In this document: positions 7,882 to 18,791 of the stretch, in pieces
Layout of the letters: each line of letters begins with the position of its first letter
Position numbering within the stretch: the first letter of the stretch is position 1
Assembly (NCBI GenBank): GCA_023382535.1
Contig: JAHDWA010000122.1
Coordinates: forward strand, 1 to 18,799
DNA: 18,799 nt
Direction: 5' to 3'
Source of the DNA: Anaerolineae bacterium
GTDB lineage: Bacteria; Chloroflexota; Anaerolineae; 4572-78; J111
The notes under the pieces: model-generated
What the model saw: only the letters and a program-made list of their open reading frames with translations
Told to the model about the DNA's origin: nothing
Databases searched by the model: none
Made by a program: the position numbers and the translations under genes

Positions 7882-10734
7882 ATGGCTGATACCAACCTAC
7901 CAACTGACCACGCAGGCAACCTGGCTGCCACCTCGCTCCTGAGCACCAAGTTATTCATTCCCCAGGCGCGACAGCTTCACGATGTTCTGCCCCGCCCTCG
8001 TCTGGTTGAACGGGTGAAGGCCGGGCTGTCAGGCCGGCTGACCTTGATCTCCGCCCCGGCCGGTTTTGGCAAAACTACCCTCCTGACCGAATGGATTCCC
8101 CACAGCAACCGCTGCGTCTGCTGGCTTTCTCTGGATGAAGCTGATAATGATCTAACCCGGTTCTTGACCTACTTCATCGCCGCCCTCCAGAGGCTCAAGG
8201 CTGATTTTGGCCAAGCCCTCCTGGCGATGCTTCAATCACCCCAGCCACCCGCTGGCGAAAGTCTGGTGACAGCCCTGGTGAACGAGATTACGGGTACACT
8301 GGATGAGTTTGCTCTGGTTTTAGACGATTATCACCTGATCCAATTACCAGCGATCCACGCGACTATCGCCTTCTTGTTGAACAACTTACCTCCCAATATG
8401 CATCTGATCCTCACCAGTCGGGCCGACCCACCCTTATCCCTGGCCCGGCTGCGCGCCCGCCGCCAACTAACCGAAATTCGAGCCGCCGACTTGCGCTTCA
8501 ACCCTGACGAGGCGGCAAACTTTCTGAATGAGGTCATGGGCTTGAGTCTCTCAGCCCAGGATATTGCTGCCCTGGAAACACGCACCGAAGGTTGGATCGC
8601 CGGGCTGCAACTGGCCGCGCTCTCCATGCAGGGCCGCCATGACCTGAGCGGCTTCATTCAGGCTTTCACCGGCAGTCATGTTTACGTGGTAGACTACCTG
8701 ACTGAAGAAGTACTGCAACGCCAGACCGAAAGTATGCAAACGTTCTTGCGACAAACCTCCATCCTGGAACGCTTGAGCGGTTCCTTGTGTGATGCGGTTA
8801 CCGAGGGAAAGGAGGGACAGGCCATGCTCGAGCAGTTGCAGCAGCACAACTTGTTCATTATTCCCCTGGACGATGAGCGGCGCTGGTATCGCTACCATCA
8901 CCTGTTTGCGGAACTGTTACGTGCTCGTCTGGAGCAAGCTTACCCGGACAGCGTGCCGGAACTCCATCAGCGGGCCAGCACATGGTATGAGCAGCAAGGA
9001 CTATTCGCCGATGCCGTGCAGCATGCCCTGGCCACTGGCGATGGTGCGCTCGCGGCCCGGCTGATAGAACTGGTGGCGCGTCCGATGCAACTACGGGGTG
9101 AGATGATGACCCTTATGGGGTGGTTCACCGCTTTACCAGAGGCCGAGCTGCAGGCACGCCCGCAGCTTGGCCTGATCTATGCCTGGGGGCTAACCACCAG
9201 CGGCCAGGTACTGGTAGCAGAACGCCGGCTGCAGGACATGGAACACCACCTCACTGCGCTTGGCGACCGTGACAACCTGCTGGGCGAGGTGAAGGTGATC
9301 CGCGCGAGGATCGCCCTCATCCAGGGCGATTATCCGCGGGTGATCGAGCTGGCGCGCCAGACGCTTGCCCATTTACCCGAAGATCAGTTGCTGCTGCGTG
9401 CTCTGACCTACGTATCTCTTGGCTCCGCCTGTATTCCCCTGGGCGATCTAGAGACGGCCAGCCTGAACCTCGCCCAGGCCAGCGTCCTCTACCAGGCCAG
9501 CGGCCAGCCGGCCATGGCGCTGCTGCCGCTGCGCCAGTTGGCCAGGGTGCAGCTCCAACAAGGTCGTTTGAACCAGTTGGACCAAACTACCCAGGAGGCG
9601 CTGCGGCTCGCGGCCCAGTCGGGGCAGCACTCACCTCTGGTGGGCTATACTTACATGAGCCTGGGCGAACTGTGGTATGAGCGCAATGACCTGGCGGCCG
9701 CCGGCCGCTACTTCGCCGATGGGCTGGCACTGGTCGAATTGGGTGGCACTGAAGATGTGTTGAACATGATGAATCTGGTGGATGCTCACCTGGGACTGGC
9801 CTGGCTCAAGCAAATGCAAGGTGAGCCGCAGGGCGCGTTGGAGCTGATACAACGGATTGAGCCTATCTGGGGGCAGTTGGCGCGAACGATCCAGCAGCGC
9901 AGTACCGGGGACGCGGACGGTACATTATGGAGCGAGTGGCAACCTGAGCCGGGTAGATCTCGACCCGGGCTGGGTTCATTGTATCTTGATCGGATCGCGG
10001 CTTGTCAGGTACGGTTATGGCTGAGCCAGGGTGACATCGGTGCGGCCAATCGGTGGGTTCAGAGCAGGGAATGGAACCTTGAAGGGGAGATCACGTTCTT
10101 TCAGGAAATCAGGTATGTTACGCTAACGCGAGTTCTGGTCGCTCAGGGCGAGTTTGAGCGCGCCCTCGCCCTCCTGGCGCGACTTCTGGACGCTGCCGAA
10201 ACCGTAGGACGGATGGGGCGAGTCATTGAGCTATTGGTACTCCAGGCCCTGGCGCTGTATGCCCATAGACGAGAAGCCGAGGCGCTTATCGCCCTGGAAC
10301 GCGCGCTGGTTCTGGCCGAACCGGAAGGCTACATCCGCACCTTTGTGGATGAGGGACCGCCGATGGCGGCGCTGCTTCGCGAAGCTCATACCCGTGCCAT
10401 TTTGCCAGCGTATGTTGCCAGGCTCCTGGCCGCCTTTGGGAAGGATGAAGGCAGAAGGATGAAGGATGAAACAAATTCGGAACCACTTCATCCTTCATAC
10501 CCAAAGGGCACGATGTCCCTCAGCTCTCAGCCTTTGGTGGAACCGCTGAGCAAACGCGAACTGGAAATACTCTCGCTCATGGCCCAAGGTTTGACCAACC
10601 CTGAAATCGGGCAGCAAATCTTCATCTCGGACCAGACGGTCAAAGTGCATACCCGCAACATCTTCGGCAAGCTCGGCGTTAACAGCCGGCGGCAGGCTGT
10701 CGTCAAGGCCAGGGACTTGGGTTTGCTGCCCTGA
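7882..10734 (+). CDS. MalT/LAL-family LuxR transcriptional regulator (paralog 1)
   Basis: The 950-residue protein has the LAL architecture. An STAND-type NTPase domain lies at about 20-340, with Walker A APAGFGKTT (58-66), Walker B ALVLDDYH (144-151) and the LILTSRADPPL sensor segment (175-185). A long TPR-like helical sensor region (about 350-850) follows, and the protein ends in a LuxR helix-turn-helix (889-950). MalT-type proteins oligomerise on ATP and inducer binding and activate transcription. The ATG at 7882 is preceded by a G-run. A terminator follows the stop, and the peroxidase-cassette promoter with its palindromic operator starts right after it, making this protein the natural candidate activator. 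The linker before the HTH (about 853-885) is encoded by heptamer-repeat DNA, so it is probably not functionally constrained. The inducer is unknown. Confidence 0.92.
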   Translation: MADTNLPTDHAGNLAATSLLSTKLFIPQARQLHDVLPRPRLVERVKAGLSGRLTLISAPAGFGKTTLLTEWIPHSNRCVCWLSLDEADNDLTRFLTYFIAALQRLKADFGQALLAMLQSPQPPAGESLVTALVNEITGTLDEFALVLDDYHLIQLPAIHATIAFLLNNLPPNMHLILTSRADPPLSLARLRARRQLTEIRAADLRFNPDEAANFLNEVMGLSLSAQDIAALETRTEGWIAGLQLAALSMQGRHDLSGFIQAFTGSHVYVVDYLTEEVLQRQTESMQTFLRQTSILERLSGSLCDAVTEGKEGQAMLEQLQQHNLFIIPLDDERRWYRYHHLFAELLRARLEQAYPDSVPELHQRASTWYEQQGLFADAVQHALATGDGALAARLIELVARPMQLRGEMMTLMGWFTALPEAELQARPQLGLIYAWGLTTSGQVLVAERRLQDMEHHLTALGDRDNLLGEVKVIRARIALIQGDYPRVIELARQTLAHLPEDQLLLRALTYVSLGSACIPLGDLETASLNLAQASVLYQASGQPAMALLPLRQLARVQLQQGRLNQLDQTTQEALRLAAQSGQHSPLVGYTYMSLGELWYERNDLAAAGRYFADGLALVELGGTEDVLNMMNLVDAHLGLAWLKQMQGEPQGALELIQRIEPIWGQLARTIQQRSTGDADGTLWSEWQPEPGRSRPGLGSLYLDRIAACQVRLWLSQGDIGAANRWVQSREWNLEGEITFFQEIRYVTLTRVLVAQGEFERALALLARLLDAAETVGRMGRVIELLVLQALALYAHRREAEALIALERALVLAEPEGYIRTFVDEGPPMAALLREAHTRAILPAYVARLLAAFGKDEGRRMKDETNSEPLHPSYPKGTMSLSSQPLVEPLSKRELEILSLMAQGLTNPEIGQQIFISDQTVKVHTRNIFGKLGVNSRRQAVVKARDLGLLP
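10441..10518. repeat. In-frame heptamer repeat element in LAL 1 linker
   Basis: Four tandem heptamers (AAGGATG, one variant AAGGCAG) at 10441-10468 are followed by a spacer, then two inverse-oriented units (CTTCATC, CTTCATA; 10486-10499) and a CCCAAAGGG-type core. The whole forms a loose dyad of about 80 bases inside the coding sequence. The 33-base segment 10486-10518 is identical to 16824-16856 in the second LAL gene but is translated in a different frame there, showing that it spread as DNA. Confidence 0.75.
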
Positions 10735-10759
10735 TTCTAAAAGCGAAGAAGAACTTTGA

Positions 10760-10792
10760 AGCCCACCGTTAACCCGGTGGGCTTTTTGTTTT
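10760..10792 (+). terminator. Rho-independent terminator of LAL 1
   Basis: AGCCCACCG and CGGTGGGCT form a perfect 9-bp stem around a 6-base loop, directly followed by TTTTG and a further T-run. It lies 25 bases after the LAL stop. A homologous hairpin with a compensated stem follows the second LAL. Confidence 0.9.
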
Positions 10793-10812
10793 CCGCCAAA
10801 ATACCACTTTTT

Positions 10813-10831
10813 ATACCCCGTTTTGGGGTAT
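10813..10831. promoter_or_regulatory. Palindromic operator ATACCCC-N5-GGGGTAT, probable LAL binding site
   Basis: This perfect 7-bp inverted repeat with a GTTTT centre lies just upstream of, and overlapping by two bases, the -35 of the cassette promoter, the position used by many LuxR-type activators. It is part of a 47-base block (10797-10843) repeated without change after the second LAL (18745-18791), although the surrounding terminators differ. Conservation of the spacer DNA argues for a protein-binding or promoter role rather than chance. Confidence 0.65.
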
Positions 10832-10859
10832 GACACTACCACCCTCTGTCGAATATACT
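10830..10859 (+). promoter_or_regulatory. Promoter of the peroxidase cassette
   Basis: ATGACA (10830-10835), an 18-base spacer and TATACT (10854-10859) give a good sigma70-type promoter about 65 bases upstream of the first cassette gene. The slightly long spacer and the adjoining palindrome fit an activator-dependent promoter. Confidence 0.6.
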
Positions 10860-10925
10860 GGCCTCATCAGTTCAATCAAATGTTGTCAAGCAACTTCAAA
10901 AAACAGTAAAAAAGGAGACTGTACG

Positions 10926-11561
10926 ATGCAAACTACTGTAACTTTGAGCAAAAAATCAGGTAAGGGCAAGACCGACCGGGTGATTTCCGAGATGGCCACG
11001 TTCTTCAAGGTCCTGCCGGGTAAAGCGGAGGAGCTTCGCGCAGCGTGTGAGCGGTTCGCCGCGACGGCCCTTCAGGGTGACCCAAAGGTCATCCAAAAGA
11101 GCGGCCTGCGCGACTCGCGGCATGTACTCTTCGACAACGATCAGCAGCTTCTGTGGGCCACAACCTTTGAGACCGAATGGGATCCCTATATTGACGACGC
11201 TGTCCTGGTTATGGGCTTTAGGGCCTTTGTTGACTGGATGCAGTATACTGTCGAGGGTAGCACCATCATCAAATCGATGAGGGACTCGGTCGCCGCAGGG
11301 GCTCCCAGCCTCAGTACAGCAAACAGCGGCGAAATCGATCAGTTCCTGTCCGCAAACACCAGCGATCTCAAGCGGATCCTACAGTCGGTTCAGGCACCCG
11401 CGGCTGGGTATTGGAATATGCTCGCAGATCAGACGACCCCCCAGATCCGCAAAGCGCAGCGGGTGGAAGCAGCCTTTCAGCAGGTCCTCGATAGTCCTGA
11501 AGCCGAGCAGGCCCTCTCACATCCGGCTCTACAGCCCCTCCTCGAACAGGCCGCCGACTGA
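10926..11561 (+). CDS. Uncharacterised cassette protein, possible dimeric alpha/beta-barrel fold
   Basis: The 211-residue soluble protein starts at 10926, preceded by AAAGGAG; a longer upstream extension of the frame is rejected because it would cross the promoter. The first 25 residues are polar. Residues about 20-105 read like a ferredoxin-like alpha/beta-barrel unit: a FFKVLPGKAEELRAACERF strand-helix, then RHVLFDNDQQLLWATTFETEWDPYIDD. The 'LLW.T.F...WD.YIDD' string resembles proteins I associate with peroxidase neighbourhoods, from memory and not verified. The C-terminal part (about 125-211) is helical, with 'SANTSDLKRILQS' and 'VEAAFQQVLDSPEAEQAL'. Being first in the DyP cassette, it may bind the same hydrophobic or heme-related substrate, or deliver it (inference). 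No enzymatic residues are recognised. Confidence 0.75.
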   Translation: MQTTVTLSKKSGKGKTDRVISEMATFFKVLPGKAEELRAACERFAATALQGDPKVIQKSGLRDSRHVLFDNDQQLLWATTFETEWDPYIDDAVLVMGFRAFVDWMQYTVEGSTIIKSMRDSVAAGAPSLSTANSGEIDQFLSANTSDLKRILQSVQAPAAGYWNMLADQTTPQIRKAQRVEAAFQQVLDSPEAEQALSHPALQPLLEQAAD

Positions 11562-11575
11562 TTGATGATGAAATA

Positions 11576-11604
11576 GGAGTCCAAAAGCACAGCTTTTGGA
11601 CTCC
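11576..11604 (+). repeat. Perfect 13-bp intercistronic hairpin
   Basis: GGAGTCCAAAAGC and GCTTTTGGACTCC pair perfectly around a 3-base loop in the 66-base gap between the first cassette gene and the peroxidase gene. No T-run follows, so it is not a standard terminator. An mRNA-stability or processing element, or a mobile palindrome, are the alternatives. Confidence 0.7.
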
Positions 11605-11627
11605 GGCAAAACTAAGGGAGAGAAACG

Positions 11628-12953
11628 ATGACGACAGCAACAAACCTGACCTTCGAACTAAACGAAATCCAGGCCGGCGCTCTGCGGCGCCGGCCCACGC
11701 CCTACACCGGGGCTTACTTCTTATTACGCCTTGACGAGCGGCAGGCCGGCCGGGAGTTCCTGCGCCGCCTCATCCCGGCCCTCGCCTCAGCCGCCGACCC
11801 TGAGCAGCAGGCCTGGCTGGCTGCCTCGCTCACCTTTCAGGGTCTCAGAGCTTTGGGGGTGCCGCAAGACTCGCTCGCCAGCTTTTCGCCTGAGTTTCAG
11901 CAAGGCATGGCCGCCCGCGCCGCCGAGTTTGGCGATACTGGCGAAAACGCCCCTGACCAGTGGGAGCAGCCGCTCGGCTCCCCTGACGTTCACATTGTAC
12001 TGGCGGCCATCGCCCCCGATTCATCCCGGTTTGAGGTGATCCTGGGCCGTGCCCGTGAGATCATGCACGATCTGCCCGGCGTCAGTCTGATCTGGCGGCA
12101 GGATGTTGGTTCCTTGCCCACCGAGCGCGACCCGTTCGGTTTCAAGGATGGCATCAGCCAACCTGCCATCGAAGGGAGTGGCATTCCCGGCAGCAACCCG
12201 CATGAAGCTCCGCTCAGGGCCGGTGAGTTCATCCTGGGCTACGTTGATGAAACCGGCGACCTGCCCCCTGTGCCGCAGCCTACGGTGCTGGGCCGCAATG
12301 GCACCTACATGGTCTTCCGCAAGCTGCACACGCGGGTCTCCACCTTCCGGCAGTACTTACGCGAGCGCTCGACCAGCCCATCTGAGGAAGAACGGCTGGC
12401 GGCCAAGATTGTGGGGCGCTGGCCCAGCGGTGCGCCGCTGGCGCTGGCCCCGGAGCACGATGATCCCGAATTGGGGGGCGACCCACAGCGGAACAATGCT
12501 TTTCTCTACGGCGACGACTCCCGCGGTCTCAAGTGCCCGTTTGGTTCGCACATCCGGCGGATGCATCCCCGCGACTCGGTTGTCGTCGGCGAGGTGCGGC
12601 TGCACCGTATGCTTCGGCGCGGCACCAGCTACGGCCCGCCGTTGGCCGAGGGTGTTTTGGAGGACGATGGGGCGGATCGCGGCATCATGTTCGCTTTCAT
12701 CGGGGCGCACATCGCCCGGCAGTTTGAGTTTGTCCAGGCCCAATGGGTTAACGATGGCAAATTTATCGGCGCGCCCGCCGAGAAAGACCCGTTCATTGGC
12801 CCCAACGACGGCAGCGGCCAATTCACCATCCCGCAGCAGCCTATCCGCCGCCGCTTGCAAGGACTGCCCGCCTTTGTGGTCAATCGCGGCGGTGAGTACT
12901 GCTTCATGCCCAGCCTGTCCGCCCTGCGCTGGCTCGCTAACCTGGACACGTGA
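11628..12953 (+). CDS. DyP-type heme peroxidase
   Basis: The 441-residue protein has the DyP-family signature. The GXXDG-type motif is GFKDG (171-175) with catalytic D174, the proximal heme-ligand histidine is in CPFGSHIRRMHPRD (H308), and the distal arginine is in MLRRGTSYG (about 330-331). DyP enzymes use hydrogen peroxide to oxidise dyes, phenolics, lipids or metals. Insertions and the length place it with the longer C/D-like classes rather than short A/B types. There is no Tat or Sec signal and no encapsulin-targeting tail is evident (it ends LANLDT), so it is probably cytoplasmic. GGGAGAG about 5 bases before the ATG supports the start. It is the second gene of the cassette; the neighbouring flavoprotein could provide reducing power (inference). 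Confidence 0.93.
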   Translation: MTTATNLTFELNEIQAGALRRRPTPYTGAYFLLRLDERQAGREFLRRLIPALASAADPEQQAWLAASLTFQGLRALGVPQDSLASFSPEFQQGMAARAAEFGDTGENAPDQWEQPLGSPDVHIVLAAIAPDSSRFEVILGRAREIMHDLPGVSLIWRQDVGSLPTERDPFGFKDGISQPAIEGSGIPGSNPHEAPLRAGEFILGYVDETGDLPPVPQPTVLGRNGTYMVFRKLHTRVSTFRQYLRERSTSPSEEERLAAKIVGRWPSGAPLALAPEHDDPELGGDPQRNNAFLYGDDSRGLKCPFGSHIRRMHPRDSVVVGEVRLHRMLRRGTSYGPPLAEGVLEDDGADRGIMFAFIGAHIARQFEFVQAQWVNDGKFIGAPAEKDPFIGPNDGSGQFTIPQQPIRRRLQGLPAFVVNRGGEYCFMPSLSALRWLANLDT

Positions 12954-13007
12954 GCCGTAAAACACACGGTGCATGTCACCCATAAAAAAGTGATAGGGGT
13001 AAATCCC

Positions 13008-13061
13008 CGTCTACCGTCTACTGTCTACGCCCTTCGGCGCACCCGTAGGGATGCCGTCTAC
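13008..13061. repeat. Heptamer repeat (CGTCTAC) with a CCC...GGG core
   Basis: Three tandem units, CGTCTAC, CGTCTAC and TGTCTAC (13008-13028), are followed by a core that can form a CGCC-CTTC-GGCG mini-hairpin (13028-13039) and a further CGTCTAC at 13055-13061. The layout of heptamers, a CCC/GGG core and more heptamers parallels the element in the second LAL gene, though the unit differs. It fills most of the gap before the DUF4331 gene and ends just before its ribosome-binding site. Confidence 0.7.
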
Positions 13062-13080
13062 TTTTTTTAAGGAGGTTATG

Positions 13081-14253
13081 ATGTCAGACCATTTTTCCGG
13101 CCCACGGGCCACGGCTGGTCCCGCCGCTGATATTGCCGATCTTTATGTTTTTCCCAGTCCTCAGCGACCCGGCTACCTGGTGCTGGTGATGACCGTTTTT
13201 CCGGCAGCCATGCCCGGCACATTCTTTTCCGATGGGATTATCTACCGCTTCCGGCTCCGGCTGGTTACTCCGACTTCCACCGGAGCCAGGCTGAAATTCG
13301 AGTTCAGCCAGACCGAATATGCGTTCAGTTGCACCTTCGTTGCTCCGGCCAAGCCTGACGGCGGGGGGACCATGATACAGACGGGTGTCTGTACCACTCC
13401 AGCGGGCAAGGCCATCCCTTTTCAGGTCAACGACGAGTTGGGTACGACAGCGGAGGGTCTGCGGGTCTTTGCCGGGTTGCGCCTGGACCCCTTCTTTATT
13501 GATTTACCGGGCGTCCAAGCCACCGAAAAGCTGCGCCGGCTCGCCTTCAAAACCCAGGGGACCAACGTACTTGAAGGGCAAAATGTCCTGAGTATTGTAA
13601 TCGAAGCCGAGATCGCGGCGATGTTTGACCCAACGCACGGCTCCCTCTTCGCTGTTGCCGCTGAAACCTTAACCGCTGGCAAAATCCCTATCCGCCTGGA
13701 GCGCGTGGGCCGGCCAGAACTGAAGAACGTTGTCCTGTCGTCAAAAGAGTTCGATCAGGTGAACCGCGATCTGGAAATTCGGGATTTATACAACCTGGAA
13801 GACCCATTCCATCTGGGCCGGGAGTATGCCGGGGCCTATCGCGCCCGGCTGAACGCCAATCTGGCCTTTTTTGACAGCCTGGACGACAAAACTGACTGGC
13901 CGCCCGACGAACAGGGCCACCACCCTCTGACCGAACTGCTGCTGGCGGACTTCCTGGTGATTGATATCTCAAAGCCGTACACAGACGACAGTTATTTCGA
14001 GATCGAGCGTGCCATGCTCCGGGGTGTCACGCCCAACACATGCGGCGGTCGCTCGCTCAACGACGACATCGTGGATAGTCTCTATACCCTGCTGGTTAAC
14101 GGTGGCAACGGCCCGCGCGTGAGTGACGGTGTGGACAAGGCAACCCGGCCTGCCTCCCTCACCTTTCCTTTCCTGGTTAGCCCCAACCCAAATCCGCCGG
14201 ACTTGAGAGCCAGAGCTGCCGCTCTTGCCGCTCCTCACCAGGAGGTGGCCTGA
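13081..14253 (+). CDS. DUF4331 family protein
   Basis: The 390-residue protein begins with the family's typical MSDHFSGPRATAGPAADIAD, followed by LYVFPSPQRPGYLVLVMTVFP, recognisable as DUF4331. Later conserved-looking parts are VFAGLRLDPFFIDL (about 127-140), the NVLSIVIEAEI strand, and a C-terminal 'DILLADFLVIDISKP'-like region with TCGGRSLNDDIVD (about 320-332). The function of DUF4331 is unknown; some family members are secreted, but this one has no signal peptide. Of three possible starts, 13081 is chosen because AAGGAGGT lies five bases before it; 13078 would leave only two bases. Its stop overlaps the next gene's start (TGATG), so the two are translationally coupled. Confidence 0.88.
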   Translation: MSDHFSGPRATAGPAADIADLYVFPSPQRPGYLVLVMTVFPAAMPGTFFSDGIIYRFRLRLVTPTSTGARLKFEFSQTEYAFSCTFVAPAKPDGGGTMIQTGVCTTPAGKAIPFQVNDELGTTAEGLRVFAGLRLDPFFIDLPGVQATEKLRRLAFKTQGTNVLEGQNVLSIVIEAEIAAMFDPTHGSLFAVAAETLTAGKIPIRLERVGRPELKNVVLSSKEFDQVNRDLEIRDLYNLEDPFHLGREYAGAYRARLNANLAFFDSLDDKTDWPPDEQGHHPLTELLLADFLVIDISKPYTDDSYFEIERAMLRGVTPNTCGGRSLNDDIVDSLYTLLVNGGNGPRVSDGVDKATRPASLTFPFLVSPNPNPPDLRARAAALAAPHQEVA

Positions 14254-15680
14254 TGTCCAGCCTGAGTAACCACACCGAACTGCTTACCCCGAAAGACGTC
14301 ACTTACGATCTAATTGTCATCGGCTCCGGCCCCGCCGGAGAAAGCGCTGCCCAAATCGCCTCTTATTTTGGCTATCGGGCGGCCATCATCGAGCGCCACC
14401 AACCCGGCGGCACGCCAACCACCCGCGGCGGCGCGCCGACCAAAACGCTGCGGGAAGCTGCCCTGGCCCTGACCGGTTTCTACCAGCAGGAAGTCTATGG
14501 CCTGGACCTGGGCGTTCCACCCGCCGTGGCGCTCGACAAAGTGGCCGAACGGACCCGGCAGGTCTGCCAATCCTTGCAAAAGACTGTCGCCCAGCGGATC
14601 GCCGTGTGGGAGATCGCCTATTTGTATGGAACAGCCCGGCTTATCCCAGGTGGCAAGGTTCGCCTGACCGAGACGGACGGCAGGGTAAGGGAGTTGTCGG
14701 CTCAAGTCATCCTGATTGCTACCGGTTCCCGGCCATTGCGTCCCGCTAATGTTCCTTTCGATGATCCCGCTGTCTTTGATGTGGACGACATCTACAGCCT
14801 CACCGCGTTGCCCAGGAGCCTGTGTATCGTGGGCGGCGGGCCAGTGGGAGTGGAATTTGCCACCATCTTCAACGCGCTGGGGACGAGTGTAACCCTGGTC
14901 CAAGCGGGCGACCAACTAGCCCCGACAATGGACGGCGAGGTGGCTCAAATGATGGCCCAGATTTTCGAGGGGCGCGGCGTCCGGGTTATCCTCGATGCGG
15001 GAACCGAGGCGGTCAAGCGAGTGGGGGACCGGCTCCAGGTCAGCCTGTCGAACGGCGCAATCTGTGAGGCTGAAGCTGTCTTTTTCGCTGCCGGTCGCCG
15101 TCCGAATACGGAAGAGTTGGGGCTTGAGGAGGTCGGGGTGGCCGTGGATAAGCGAGGCTATCTTGTGGTGGACCAGAATTTCCAAACGAGTGTCCCAGGG
15201 GTCTACGCGGCCGGTGATGTATTAGGGCCTGGCTTATCGTCGGTAGCGATGGAGCAGGGTCGGGTGGCGGCCTGCCGGGCATTCCATATTGATTTCCTGG
15301 AAAGGGTTGATCCTATCCCGATCTCGGCAGTCTACGGGATGCCGGAGATGGCCGGGGTCGGCTTAACCGAAGAACAGTGCCAGGAACAAGGGCTGGATTA
15401 TGCCGTTGGCCGCGCCGCGTTTGCCAACATCCCGCGCGGAGCTATCTCCGGCCACGATGGGTTGCTGAAACTCATTTTCCGCCGGGATGACCGGCGGCTG
15501 TTGGGTGTTCATTGCCTGGGCGAAATCGCTTCAGAAATCATCGGGGCTGGGCAGATGGTCCTGCATTATGGCGGAACCATTGACATTTTCAGCCAGATCA
15601 CTTTACCCACTCCCACCTACAGCTATGCTTACAAGAATGCTGCCTTCGATGGCCTGCGCCGGGTGATGAAACGTCCATAG
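14253..15680 (+). CDS. Disulfide-reductase-family flavoprotein (SthA-like) without redox cysteines
   Basis: The 475-residue protein has the complete pyridine nucleotide-disulfide oxidoreductase fold. The FAD dinucleotide motif is IGSGPAGESAA (23-33), ATGSRP is at 156-161, the NAD(P) motif is VGGGPVGVEFA (193-203), the second FAD motif is GVYAAGDVLG (316-325), and the dimerisation domain spans about 355-475. The active-site stretch that is usually GGTCLNVGCIPSK reads GGTPTTRGGAPTK (52-64), so both cysteines are replaced. The C-terminal His-Glu pair of true disulfide reductases is also absent (PTPTYSYAYKNAA). Thiol-disulfide chemistry is therefore excluded; a transhydrogenase, diaphorase or electron-donor role is more likely, and reducing the DyP system is a plausible inference. 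GGAGGT precedes the ATG, which overlaps the DUF4331 stop. Confidence 0.9.
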   Translation: MSSLSNHTELLTPKDVTYDLIVIGSGPAGESAAQIASYFGYRAAIIERHQPGGTPTTRGGAPTKTLREAALALTGFYQQEVYGLDLGVPPAVALDKVAERTRQVCQSLQKTVAQRIAVWEIAYLYGTARLIPGGKVRLTETDGRVRELSAQVILIATGSRPLRPANVPFDDPAVFDVDDIYSLTALPRSLCIVGGGPVGVEFATIFNALGTSVTLVQAGDQLAPTMDGEVAQMMAQIFEGRGVRVILDAGTEAVKRVGDRLQVSLSNGAICEAEAVFFAAGRRPNTEELGLEEVGVAVDKRGYLVVDQNFQTSVPGVYAAGDVLGPGLSSVAMEQGRVAACRAFHIDFLERVDPIPISAVYGMPEMAGVGLTEEQCQEQGLDYAVGRAAFANIPRGAISGHDGLLKLIFRRDDRRLLGVHCLGEIASEIIGAGQMVLHYGGTIDIFSQITLPTPTYSYAYKNAAFDGLRRVMKRP

Positions 15681-15724
15681 CCTAACTTAATGAACCTTGA
15701 CAGGAAATAGAGCATGATAAACAT

Positions 15725-15752
15725 TTGTATCTAATCTTCAAATCGCTATAAT
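15725..15752 (+). promoter_or_regulatory. Promoter of second LAL gene
   Basis: TTGTAT (15725-15730), a 16-base spacer and TATAAT (15747-15752) lie about 86 bases upstream of the second LAL start. The -35, the spacer ending in AAT.GC and the -10 resemble those of the first LAL promoter. Confidence 0.55.
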
Positions 15753-15815
15753 GTTTGCTGTTTGACGTTATTGCTCACCAAACCAAGAACGATTAGGTGT
15801 GTTTGGCGTACAGCA

Positions 15816-15838
15816 CGATCATCTGGGGGGAGGATCGC
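15816..15838 (+). promoter_or_regulatory. Leader dyad enclosing the G-rich ribosome-binding site (LAL 2)
   Basis: CGATC (15816-15820) and GATCG (15833-15837) surround a 12-base loop with GGGGGGAG, one base before the ATG. It matches the dyad at 7858-7881 in stem sequence, loop length and position; the sixth stem pair is lost here. Confidence 0.5.
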
Positions 15839-18682
15839 ATGGCTGAGACCGTCTTAACAGCAGACCGCTCCGGCAGCCCGGCTGCCAATATGCTCCTGAG
15901 TACCAAATTATTTATTCCCCAGGCGCGGCAACGGCAGGACGTACTGCTCCGCCCCCGCCTGATCGAACGGTTGAAGGCTGGGTCAGTCCGCCCGCTGACC
16001 CTCATCTCGGCCCCGGCTGGCTTTGGCAAAACCACCCTCCTGGCCGAATGGATTTCCCACAGTGAACGCTGCGTCTGCTGGCTCTCCCTGGATGAAACCG
16101 ATAATGACCTGACCCGTTTTTTGACCTATGTCATCGCCGCCCTCCAACTGCTCAAGGCTGAGTTTGGTCAGGTCATTCTGGGGATGCTCCACGCTCCCCA
16201 ACCGCCCCCTCTCGAAAATCTGATGACCACCCTGGTGAATGAGATCATTCAGACCCTGGCCGAATTTGCCCTGGTTCTGGATGATTATCACCTGATCCAC
16301 CTGCCGGCTATTCACGCGGCTGTCGCTTTTTTGTTGAACCATCTCCCCCCCAATATGCACCTGATCCTCACCAGCCGGGCCGACCCCTCCCTCCCCCTGG
16401 CCCGGCTGCGCGTGCGCGGCCAGTTGACCGAATTGCGAGCCGCCGACCTGCGCTTTACCCCGGATGAAGCTATCGCTTTCTTTCACCAGATTAAGGCTTT
16501 ACCGCTCCCGACCGCTCAGATCGAAGAGTTGGAAACGCGCACCGAAGGCTGGGGCGCCGGGTTGCACCTGGCGGCGCTGTCGTTGCAAGGGTTGGACACG
16601 GTTGGCACTGCTCGCTTCATCCGTGACTTTACCGGCAGCCACCATCATGTTTTTGATTACCTGACCGAGGAAGTTCTTCAGCAGCAGCCGGAGGAGATTC
16701 AACGTTTCTTGTTGTACACTTCTGTTTTGGACCGGCTGTGTAATCCTTTGTGTGATGCCGTCCTCGGAAAGCCGGAAGGCGGAACGCCCCGCGTGAAGGA
16801 TGAGAAGGAAATATTCCCTGAGTCTTCATCCTTCATACCCAAAGGGCACGATGTCCTTCATCCTTCATCCTTTATCCTTGAATATCTTGAACACGCCAAC
16901 CTCTTCCTCGTACCCCTCGACGGCGAACGGCGCTGGCATCGCTATCATCATCTCTTTGCTAATTTTCTCCGCGACCGCTTGACCCGTGAAGTCGGCGCTG
17001 TGGGCGTCGCAGCCCTCCACTGTCGAGCCAGTAGGTGGTATGAGCAAGAGGGGTTGGTTGACGAGGCTATAAATCACGCCCTGGCCGGGCACGATTTTGA
17101 GCAGGCAGTCCGTCTGATCGAGTTTGTTCATATTATCAAGTGGCAGGCCGGTGAAATCAAGACGCTGCAAGCTTGGTTGGCGACCCTGCCGGTGGCATCC
17201 TGGCGTACACACCCGCGCCTATGGCTGGTTCAAGCTTGGGCCTCCATAACAGTCGGCGAGTTTTCCGAGGCGGATGAGAAGCTGCGGGGGGCCGAAGAAG
17301 CCCTCGCTTTTCTGGACGAGGAAAGTGCTCGCAGCCTGCGTCCTGAGGTTTTGGCTCTTCGCGCCAGCTATGCCAGCCTTATTCAAGACCCATCCGCCGT
17401 TGAGCTGGCGCAGCAGGCCCTGCGAGAATTGCCCAAAGACTACTGGCTGCGTGGGATACTGGTTGTTTTCCTGGGGACTGCCTATTATACAATGGGCGAT
17501 CTAAATGCCGCCGGGACTGTGTTGGCGCAAGGATCTGGCTCAACTCTGTCAACCCCCGGCCCTCAGCCTCATCAAATTCATCTACTGGTGTTTGACGGTA
17601 TGGTTCACCATGCCAAAGGTAGATTGCAAGCTGCCCGGGCGCTCATGCAGCGGGCCTTGGAACTGGCTGAGCCTGGGGGTCAACCCATCCCCTTTGTCGG
17701 GACCCTGTTTGCCTACATGTCCTCAAGCCTGGTGTTGTATGAGCTGGGTGAGTTTGATCAAGTTGAGGTCTATTTAGCCCGGTGCGCCGACCAGGCCGTG
17801 AAACTCGGTAGCGCCGAGGCTCAGGTCTTTGCCCTGAGCGGCCTGGCCCGTATTTGTCTCGCGCGTGGTGACTTGGCCGCCGCGGCGAGTTACACCGATC
17901 AAATTGACACCCTCCTGCAAGCCCAAGCCTTGGCCAGTGGCATTATGGCCTATGTCGAATACCATCGCTTCCAACTCCTGCTGAAGCAAGGAAACCTCGC
18001 GGCTGCTACGGTATGGGCCGAGACGCACTCCGATCAGTCAAGTCCGTTAAATCCCTATGCCTTCCACCGCCTGGCGCTGCCACAAATACTGATCGCCCAG
18101 GGGAGGTTTGAAACCGCTTTGGACAAACTCGCCGTCCTCATCCAGGAAGCTGAGGCCACCGGCCACGGCAGTTTGTTGATTAAAGCCCTGGTTTTGCAAG
18201 CGCTGGCTTTTCAGGCGTATGGCAACAACAAGCAGGCCTTGACTACCCTCGAACAGGCCTTGACCCTGGCCGAACCGGAGGGCTACATCCGCCCCTTCGT
18301 GGATGAGGGACTGCCGATGGCGGCCCTGCTCCGCGAAGCCCACACCCGCGCCATTATGCCCGCCTATGTCACCAGGCTCCTGGCCGCCTTTCGGAAGGAT
18401 GAAGGCGGAACGCTCCGCGTGAAGGATGAAACAAATTCGGAACCACTTCATCCCGCTTCGCGATCCTTCATCCCTCATCCTTTAGTAGAGCCTTTGAGCA
18501 AACGCGAACTGGAAATTCTGTCGCTGATAGCCCAAGGCTTGACCAATCCTGAAATCGGGCAGCAAATCTTCATCTCGGATCAGACGGTCAAGGTGCATAC
18601 CCGCAATATCTTCGGCAAACTCGGCGTTAACAGCCGGCGGCAGGCTGTTGCCAAGGCCAGGGGCTTGGGTTTGCTGTCCTGA
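15839..18682 (+). CDS. MalT/LAL-family LuxR transcriptional regulator (paralog 2)
   Basis: The 947-residue paralog of the protein at 7882 has the same domains: Walker A APAGFGKTT (58-66), Walker B ALVLDDYH (144-151), a TPR-like region and a LuxR HTH (886-947). The HTH differs from paralog 1 at only 4 of 62 residues, whereas the TPR-like middle is strongly diverged. Both should therefore read the same DNA site but sense different ligands (inference). A GTG 14 codons upstream is in frame, but the ATG at 15839 aligns with the MADT start of paralog 1 and has the matching ribosome-binding site. Two heptamer-repeat insertions are translated in frame: residues about 311-346, absent from paralog 1, and the linker at about 853-882. 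The first falls at the end of the NTPase/winged-helix region and could alter activity. Confidence 0.92.
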   Translation: MAETVLTADRSGSPAANMLLSTKLFIPQARQRQDVLLRPRLIERLKAGSVRPLTLISAPAGFGKTTLLAEWISHSERCVCWLSLDETDNDLTRFLTYVIAALQLLKAEFGQVILGMLHAPQPPPLENLMTTLVNEIIQTLAEFALVLDDYHLIHLPAIHAAVAFLLNHLPPNMHLILTSRADPSLPLARLRVRGQLTELRAADLRFTPDEAIAFFHQIKALPLPTAQIEELETRTEGWGAGLHLAALSLQGLDTVGTARFIRDFTGSHHHVFDYLTEEVLQQQPEEIQRFLLYTSVLDRLCNPLCDAVLGKPEGGTPRVKDEKEIFPESSSFIPKGHDVLHPSSFILEYLEHANLFLVPLDGERRWHRYHHLFANFLRDRLTREVGAVGVAALHCRASRWYEQEGLVDEAINHALAGHDFEQAVRLIEFVHIIKWQAGEIKTLQAWLATLPVASWRTHPRLWLVQAWASITVGEFSEADEKLRGAEEALAFLDEESARSLRPEVLALRASYASLIQDPSAVELAQQALRELPKDYWLRGILVVFLGTAYYTMGDLNAAGTVLAQGSGSTLSTPGPQPHQIHLLVFDGMVHHAKGRLQAARALMQRALELAEPGGQPIPFVGTLFAYMSSSLVLYELGEFDQVEVYLARCADQAVKLGSAEAQVFALSGLARICLARGDLAAAASYTDQIDTLLQAQALASGIMAYVEYHRFQLLLKQGNLAAATVWAETHSDQSSPLNPYAFHRLALPQILIAQGRFETALDKLAVLIQEAEATGHGSLLIKALVLQALAFQAYGNNKQALTTLEQALTLAEPEGYIRPFVDEGLPMAALLREAHTRAIMPAYVTRLLAAFRKDEGGTLRVKDETNSEPLHPASRSFIPHPLVEPLSKRELEILSLIAQGLTNPEIGQQIFISDQTVKVHTRNIFGKLGVNSRRQAVAKARGLGLLS
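16824..16883. repeat. Heptamer repeat element inserted in LAL 2 NTPase region
   Basis: Units CTTCATC and CTTCATA (16824-16837), the CCCAAAGGG core, and then CTTCATC, CTTCATC, CTTTATC and CTTGAAT (16856-16883) form a symmetrical element. Together with the upstream GC-rich part (from about 16769) it adds roughly 30 residues absent from paralog 1. Bases 16824-16856 are identical to 10486-10518. Confidence 0.75.
18395..18485. repeat. Heptamer repeat element in LAL 2 linker
   Basis: AAGGATG, AAGGCGG, a GCGGA..TCCGC mini-palindrome and another AAGGATG (18422-18428) are followed by inverse TTCATCC-type units to about 18482. Its middle matches the linker repeat of LAL 1, and its GC-rich part (GGCGGAACGC-CCGCGTG) matches the insertion at about 16780-16800, so it links the other two copies. 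Confidence 0.7.
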
Positions 18683-18744: not shown

Positions 18745-18791
18745 CAAAATACCACTTTTTATACCCCGTTTTGGGGTATGACACTACCACC
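18745..18791 (+). promoter_or_regulatory. Second copy of the operator/promoter block
   Basis: These 47 bases are identical to 10797-10843. They include the ATACCCC-N5-GGGGTAT palindrome (18761-18779) and the ATGACA -35 (18778-18783). The expected -10 lies just beyond the window edge. By analogy a downstream operon under the same control should begin about 65-80 bases past the end of the window. Confidence 0.65.

Follow-up and report, generated by a model that had tools for sequence, protein, structure and literature searches.

A four-gene DyP cassette of an Anaerolineae bacterium as one local form of a widespread orfA–DyP gene module

We analysed an 18,799-nucleotide stretch of DNA from an Anaerolineae bacterium (GenBank assembly GCA_023382535.1, contig JAHDWA010000122.1), here called the window. 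On its + strand, an inverted-repeat promoter is followed by four co-directional genes, which encode in order the orfA protein, a class V-like DyP-type peroxidase, a DUF4331 protein and an SthA-like flavoprotein; two MalT-like LAL regulators, LAL1 and LAL2, flank this cassette, one on each side. Comparison of gene neighbourhoods shows that the cassette is a local variant of a widespread gene module, built around the pair of orfA and a class V-like DyP. The features of the window are as follows, with HTH denoting the helix-turn-helix domain of the regulators.

7882–10734, + strand: LAL1, MalT-like STAND LuxR regulator of 950 aa; TPR_MalT and GerE matches above cut-off
10758–10785, + strand: terminator-like hairpin 3′ of LAL1, 11 pairs and then a T-rich tail
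10813–10831, no strand: operator core, inverted repeat ATACCCCGTTTTGGGGTAT; block kept in L001–L003 and present once per genome in G001–G003
10830–10859, + strand: sigma70-like promoter ATGACA-18-TATACT, abutting the operator
10926–11561, + strand: orfA, 211 aa, companion of class V-like DyPs
11576–11604, no strand: 13-pair hairpin in the orfA–DyP gap
11628–12953, + strand: class V-like DyP-type peroxidase; TIGR01413 above cut-off; D174, H308 and R330 present
13081–14253, + strand: DUF4331 protein of the module subfamily, 390 aa; PF14224
14253–15680, + strand: SthA/LPD-like flavoprotein without redox Cys pair, 475 aa
15839–18682, + strand: LAL2, second MalT-like regulator; HTH 95% and body 53% identical to LAL1
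18761–18791, no strand: second copy of the operator block, at the window end

The four genes of the cassette

These coordinates bear out a first-pass annotation of the window, which had described a promoter with a palindromic operator and four co-directional genes, the last two overlapping by one base; that base, 14253, is common to the DUF4331 stop and the flavoprotein start. The orfA start is the ATG at 10926, preceded by AAAGGAG, the alternative at 10830 being too early. The hairpin between orfA and DyP was listed for the − strand only and is therefore not a terminator of an orfA–DyP operon. The DyP–DUF4331 gap contains repeated GTCTAC words (12960–13070), possibly a small repeat element.

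The orfA protein had no family match in Pfam (at E 0.001) or NCBIfam, and is thus no member of the ABM family by sequence. Its predicted structure (predicted local distance difference test, pLDDT, 85) resembles a ferredoxin-like barrel with a helical C-terminal part, and ABM-type structures ranked top in both fold searches with this model, at modest scores. The model suggests an ABM-like ferredoxin barrel, an indication of fold and not of function, and agrees with the earlier description of orfA as a possible alpha/beta barrel. An alignment of 45 orfA sequences has 13 invariant columns, of which none is His, Cys or Met and one is Tyr. This composition speaks against a part for orfA in loading the DyP, either as heme donor or as heme-removing partner; a Tyr ligand is possible, and we consider such a role quite doubtful.

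The second gene encodes a member of the NCBIfam DyP superfamily (TIGR01413, 113.1 bits versus a cut-off of 100.5), and its Pfam DyP_N match scores 22.7, below the cut-off of 27.5. The closest solved structures are 8re3 (444 bits) and 8re2 (441 bits), compared with 149 bits for the fungal DyP 2d3q, and mark the window DyP as class V-like, 8re2 being assigned to class V in PMC10820274. Alignment to 8re3 and 2d3q identifies D174 as the distal Asp of the GXXDG motif, H308 as the proximal His and R330 as the distal Arg. All three residues are conserved in 37 of the 38 rows aligned, with a gap in the one other row in each case; in five rows, Ser or Pro replaces the second Gly of GXXDG.

The DUF4331 protein matches PF14224 (97.9 bits versus a gathering cut-off of 27) and begins with a conserved MSDHFSGPRA sequence. 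Searches with its predicted structure (pLDDT 88) gave no convincing fold match. No paper on DUF4331 was found in the literature searched; the first-pass annotation had likewise known of no described system with this composition.

The flavoprotein has Pyr_redox_2 and Pyr_redox_dim domains above cut-off, and its best NCBIfam model is the SthA equivalog NF003585, whose cut-off of 465 bits it does not reach (430.3 bits). It had been called cysteine-less; six cysteines are in fact present, and what is absent is the redox-active pair that would place it among the disulphide reductases of the LPD, GR and MerA type. In an alignment of 131 flavoprotein rows, made up of the 120 best of 6195 hits together with 10 loci and the window, no row has a Cys in the redox-motif region, one row being blank there. 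The C-terminal region reads PTPTYSYAY where disulphide reductases carry His-Glu.

The orfA–DyP pair across genomes

An orfA-alignment scan of one genome per species (84,980 species) yielded 36 loci, which are not independent and whose gene content was determined by phmmer with window and locus proteins; 314 orfA relatives were found. DyP is present in 34 of the 36 loci, spans five phyla and always lies on the same strand as orfA, and DUF4331 is present in 29. The exceptions without DyP are L031, where the contig ends, and L023. In L005 the anchoring orfA lies 6.7 kb from DyP, which has an orfA copy of its own. The genes are thus syntenic elsewhere, contrary to the refuting condition named in the first-pass annotation, and its proposal of a coherent module is supported. 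The commonest DyP partner is orfA, not the flavoprotein.

The orfA, DyP and DUF4331 distance matrices correlate at 0.88, 0.90 and 0.94, values matched by none of 2000 permutations, in the 25 loci that have all three families with DyP above 500 and DUF4331 above 350; the statistic ignores kinship among species. Gene overlaps in two loci (DUF4331 stop at 13839 and TPR start at 13836 in L001; DUF4331 stop at 13230 and flavoprotein start at 13227 in L003) suggest that the module genes form operons.

The genes that accompany the pair differ among loci. A TPR protein follows DUF4331 in 11 loci, and an alpha/beta hydrolase, read as epoxide-hydrolase-like, occurs in three. In 15 actinobacterial loci an enoyl-CoA hydratase-family (ECH) gene follows DyP, accompanied in 14 by a sulphite-oxidase-like molybdenum enzyme. 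DUF4331 is missing from the Ktedonobacter-type loci L028, L029 and L032, where orfA–DyP is followed by FUSC and a P450-like protein, the latter with one short Pfam match. An SthA-like flavoprotein is found in only 7 of the 36. DUF4331, flavoprotein and SUOX-like genes lie in pieces across frames in L149, L036 and L025, through either decay or assembly error.

This distribution bears on the earlier suggestion that the flavoprotein is a dedicated electron-transfer partner of DyP, and on a fuller scheme in which DyP oxidises a small quinol or phenol with H2O2 and the flavoprotein re-reduces the product via NAD(P)H, so that H2O2 is removed through a diffusible mediator. Several observations favour such a cycle. 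First, the lack of a redox-motif Cys in any aligned row leads one to expect a non-disulphide acceptor. Second, other flavoproteins occur at some loci, that of L008 also being without a Cys pair, and the Rhizobium T136 locus L158 has two Pyr_redox_2 proteins that fall below every NCBIfam cut-off and are read as NDH-2/quinone-reductase-like. Third, the PDB matches of the flavoprotein include Rv3303c-LpdA (1xdi), which we take to be a quinone reductase. However, ECH in 15 loci, or FUSC and the P450-like protein in three, stand in place of the flavoprotein, which argues against a dedicated partner; orfA and DUF4331 are left unexplained; and the Streptomyces avermitilis enzymes SaDyP1 and SaDyP2 have low kcat with anthraquinone dyes (PMC8395514). 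On balance we regard the cycle as unlikely.

DUF4331 was also followed in its own right, with a subfamily profile (A2) that sets module-type proteins sharply apart from other DUF4331. Of 350 Chloroflexota genomes, 64 have any match; three of these exceed 600 bits, and the next best reaches 69; in Actinomycetota, 2 of 296 exceed 600 bits and the next scores 77, with any match in 48. Five of 199 Streptomyces genomes exceed 250 bits (any match in 74), and 2 of 244 cyanobacterial genomes match at E 1e-30. Among the 11 distinct genomes from these scans, four were already in the orfA scan and seven were new. DyP lies near the module-type DUF4331 in five of the seven (G039, G541, G786, G685 and G820), on the opposite strand in G685 and G820, and the DUF4331 gene of G820 is in pieces. 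The first-pass annotation had proposed a neighbourhood survey of Chloroflexota and cyanobacteria; recurrence of module-type DUF4331 with DyP was thus found in part, G664 and G966 departing from it as described below.

Plasmids gave a further view of the pair. By tblastn, DyP was found in 81 records and orfA in 20, and in all 20 an orfA copy lies no more than 0.32 kb from a same-strand DyP match; two Streptomyces megaplasmids have a second, distant copy besides the DyP-adjacent one. We also searched 22 plasmid loci with an orfA hidden Markov model, the loci being hand-picked among 50 listed of the 81 DyP records with the orfA list already seen. In 21 of these 22, orfA lies within one gene of DyP or is fused to it; 16 loci were outside the tblastn orfA list, and 15 of those nonetheless have orfA. 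Fusion is seen in Rhizobium leguminosarum (L196) and R. sophoriradicis (L202), where a single protein carries both an orfA-like segment and a DyP domain.

Some plasmid loci have further features. The fused proteins have ~1000 residues and lie beside heparin-lyase-family genes, with a CHAT gene also present in R. leguminosarum. In the Sinorhizobium plasmid module L160, hemA lies upstream and cytochrome c, 2Fe-2S and molybdopterin genes lie downstream.

Could these be unrelated genes, adjacent by chance or by hitch-hiking? The flavoprotein is present in a minority of loci, and module-type DUF4331 stands without DyP in the stretches read around it in G966 and G664. Recurrence of orfA–DyP in five phyla and on plasmids, together with the two fused proteins, contradicts chance adjacency for the pair itself, and we judge this explanation highly improbable.

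Regulation by LAL proteins in Anaerolineae

LAL1 has the MalT-like architecture of a TPR region (TPR_MalT, 246.2 bits) and a C-terminal LuxR HTH (GerE, 72.9 bits), both above cut-off. Its AAA_16 score of 28.8 is below the cut-off of 32.6, and the MalT model aligns over residues 19–662. TTCATCC heptamers are repeated within both LAL genes (10457–10500, 16825–16877 and 18467–18480) with the reading frame kept, 6 matches being observed versus 0.01 expected.

Each LAL gene is followed on its 3′ side by a copy of a 75-nt element that contains the inverted repeat ATACCCCGTTTTGGGGTAT and a terminator-like hairpin; the two copies are 95% identical. Exact copies of ACCCC-N5-GGGGT occur in the window only at 10815 and 18763. 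With up to two mismatches the motif is no commoner than chance (10 observed, 13.3 expected from shuffles), so the weight of the operator assignment rests on conservation and not on the motif alone. The right arm of the operator may resemble MalT boxes. The promoter, ATGACA, 18 nt and TATACT, begins at the right edge of the operator and matches sigma70 at 10 of 12 positions; four such sites were observed in a scan of 10700–15900, versus 1.5 in shuffles.

Multiple comparisons with the loci L001–L003 and the genomes G001–G003 support LAL control of the cassette in Anaerolineae. First, the block 5′ of orfA is kept in L001–L003 at 63–66 of 76–77 columns, with an imperfect right arm and with TATACT at the equivalent place. 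Second, each of G001–G003 (7.9–9.4 Mb) has exactly one site for the operator pattern ATACCCCGTNNTGGGGNATGNNACTACCACC at up to three mismatches. In all three genomes this site lies between LAL and orfA, and a control with the pattern reversed gave no site. As the pattern was built from L001–L003 and the window, zero mismatches there follow by construction, and the finding is that there is no other site. Third, each of G001–G003 has several strong MalT-type LALs. Compared with LAL1, the three cassette LALs show HTH identities of 88, 91 and 89% and body identities of 78, 52 and 53%, whereas 15 other LALs of these genomes have HTH identities of 39–66% and body identities of 39–49%. For this control, 16 of the 18 other TPR_MalT matches listed above 150 bits were hand-picked, and L169, which ends before the HTH, was left out. 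Because the cassette LALs keep the HTH while most of their bodies diverge, the DNA-binding domain and the operator are, by these alignments, conserved jointly, and the sensing part is variable. LAL control in Anaerolineae is thus well supported by comparison, and the pair of LAL and operator provides an example of a LAL whose likely target can be read from sequence.

Control by a STAND regulator, as the first-pass annotation had it, was seen in a minority of the module's loci. A STAND/LuxR regulator lies upstream and co-directional in 6 of the 36 orfA loci (L001–L003, L009, L010 and L012), and also in G786; the L012 regulator is a fragment with one gene between, and L006 has a divergent BTAD/AAA_16 protein instead. 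In the other loci, no upstream STAND/LuxR regulator was found by a scan with the LAL1 HTH at E 1e-5; several contigs are short upstream, making six a lower bound. From this count, LAL control is local to a few lineages.

LAL2 probably belongs to a second cassette starting downstream of the window, because it is followed by the same operator element and because a second orfA, P0154, 60% identical to the window orfA, is on an equally long contig: in the protein lists, the longest contig is 78,670 bases both for the window orfA and flavoprotein entries and for P0154.

Proposed role of the module and comparison with known systems

We propose, at a probability of roughly 40%, that orfA and DyP constitute a peroxidase unit in the cytosol, acting on an organic substrate that is perhaps derived from lipids, with accessory genes swapped between lineages. 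In Anaerolineae, the LAL encoded just upstream, paired with the operator against the orfA promoter, would switch on the operon in response to a signal that its variable body senses. OrfA would bind DyP and either make it active or supply its substrate at cytosolic pH. DyP would then use peroxide to oxidise an organic substrate, plausibly a fatty acid hydroperoxide or related oxylipin. The flavoprotein, with NAD(P)H, would reduce a non-disulphide product or mediator that is quinone-like or carbonyl-like, and DUF4331 and, where present, the TPR protein would be further subunits or processing enzymes.

A lipid-derived substrate is plausible because of neighbours in other genomes, namely ECH, catalase-family and lipid genes. 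By the product names annotated in the plasmid records, a catalase-family gene lies near orfA–DyP in 11 of 22 records, two of the 22 being without annotation; these are from Deinococcus radiodurans, Rhodococcus, Sphingobium, Acinetobacter, Rhizobium, Terrarubrum, Paracoccus, Methylorubrum, Ketogulonicigenium, Sphingomonas and Haematobacter. Hydroxyacyl-CoA dehydrogenase, oleate hydratase, thioesterase, patatin, acyl-CoA dehydrogenase or P450 genes are found in 6 of the 22. The Pfam Catalase score is below cut-off in the three tested neighbours with a match, and the S. hirsutus neighbour has no match. Catalase-like hemoproteins are able to act on fatty acid hydroperoxides.

Several observations weigh against this proposal. 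Because catalase-like, ECH and other lipid genes are all absent from the window, the idea of a lipid substrate is borrowed from other gene arrangements and is the weakest step of the mechanism; the lipid genes of L184 and L191 lie on the opposite strand. The pairing itself has irregular cases: L023 has a partial orfA and no DyP, no DyP was found in the 19 kb read around the module-type DUF4331 of G966 and of G664 (where DUF4331 is truncated), and the L199 DyP, 30% identical to that of the window, has no orfA. Four of the 21 plasmid orfA matches are weak (L195, E 2e-6; L198, 8e-8; and the fused L196 and L202, 28–29 bits), and the sole match in L158, a locus reached through DUF4331, is both weak (2.6e-5) and non-adjacent. 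A gene separates orfA from DyP in L186 and L195, ~1 kb does so in L197 and L203, and orfA is downstream of DyP in L188. Both Sinorhizobium orfA copies are without the conserved C-terminal tail, and the kinship that the distance-matrix statistic ignores also counts here. Finally, partners of aromatic or polyketide type (FUSC, SnoaL and NIPSNAP) occur elsewhere. They would suit a scheme with orfA as an ABM-type oxygenase that needs no cofactor and DyP as the enzyme coupling or cleaving an aromatic compound, while the other genes finish or export the product; the fold searches place orfA near ABM-type structures, its sequence gives no ABM match, and we consider this scheme, too, rather unlikely.

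A peroxidase unit of orfA and DyP allows a more specific idea, which we advance tentatively: bacterial class V DyPs may depend on orfA as an essential subunit or activator, in which case the characterised enzymes, among them D. radiodurans DyP and the slow SaDyPs, may be half-enzymes, and the orfA–DyP complex would serve interchangeable redox modules, of which the LAL-controlled DUF4331/flavoprotein set of the window would be one. D. radiodurans DyP is reported to be inactive at pH 7.5, and its authors speculate that protein interactions may govern its activity (PMC10820274). The words operon and cluster are absent from the main text of PMC10820274, as are operon, gene cluster, neighbor and upstream from that of PMC8395514. 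The latter gives no reported functions for SaDyP1/2 homologues and names relatives in S. hirsutus; the genome of this species has two class V-like DyPs with orfA in front of both.

Both PMC8395514 and PMC10820274 leave open what bacterial class V DyPs do physiologically. Synteny names a concrete partner candidate, orfA, whose operon-like position recurs in D. radiodurans, in Streptomyces and in many other bacteria, and the recurrence of DyP-associated proteins in many unrelated bacteria suggests that enzymes studied in isolation may normally work with partners.

Among known systems, SthA soluble transhydrogenase is the nearest NCBIfam model of the flavoprotein, whose best PDB chain is 9n4y (275 bits), but the flavoprotein stays below the SthA cut-off and has GGTPTTRGGAPTK where the SthA side has GGNCTHLGTIPSK. 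Like MalT and other LAL regulators, LAL1 and LAL2 carry TPR_MalT and a LuxR HTH above cut-off; unlike MalT, they have an operator of their own and fall below the MalT equivalog cut-off of 537 bits (NF003420, 499.7 and 479.1 bits). EfeUOB and encapsulin–DyP systems likewise provide a DyP with dedicated partner genes (PMC8197335), but the partners are different, none of nine scanned window proteins matching an iron-transporter or capsid family. SaDyP1 and SaDyP2 resemble the window DyP in being bacterial class V enzymes of undefined role (PMC8395514).

The closest solved structure is that of D. radiodurans DyP (DR_A0145; 8RE2/8RE3; class V, formerly C), which is 47.7% identical to the window DyP by tblastn and whose D189, H324 and R348 (PMC10820274) correspond to D174, H308 and R330; its motif is GXXDM, compared to GFKDG in the window. 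DR_A0145 and DR_A0146 are both raised by ultraviolet-C and vacuum (PMC5731708), and drA0145 serves only as a peroxidase marker in PMC12027078; to judge from the consecutive tags, DR_A0146 is probably the neighbour annotated as catalase-family. At the D. radiodurans locus, DyP is followed by a catalase-family gene, and no DUF4331 or flavoprotein is annotated in the 11 kb shown, unlike in the window. The DyP in the plasmid record matches 8RE3 end to end and is thus the crystallised enzyme, and, as in the window, an orfA homologue (WP_051618841.1 in isolate DRR11; 94 bits) lies directly upstream, with a single base between the two genes.

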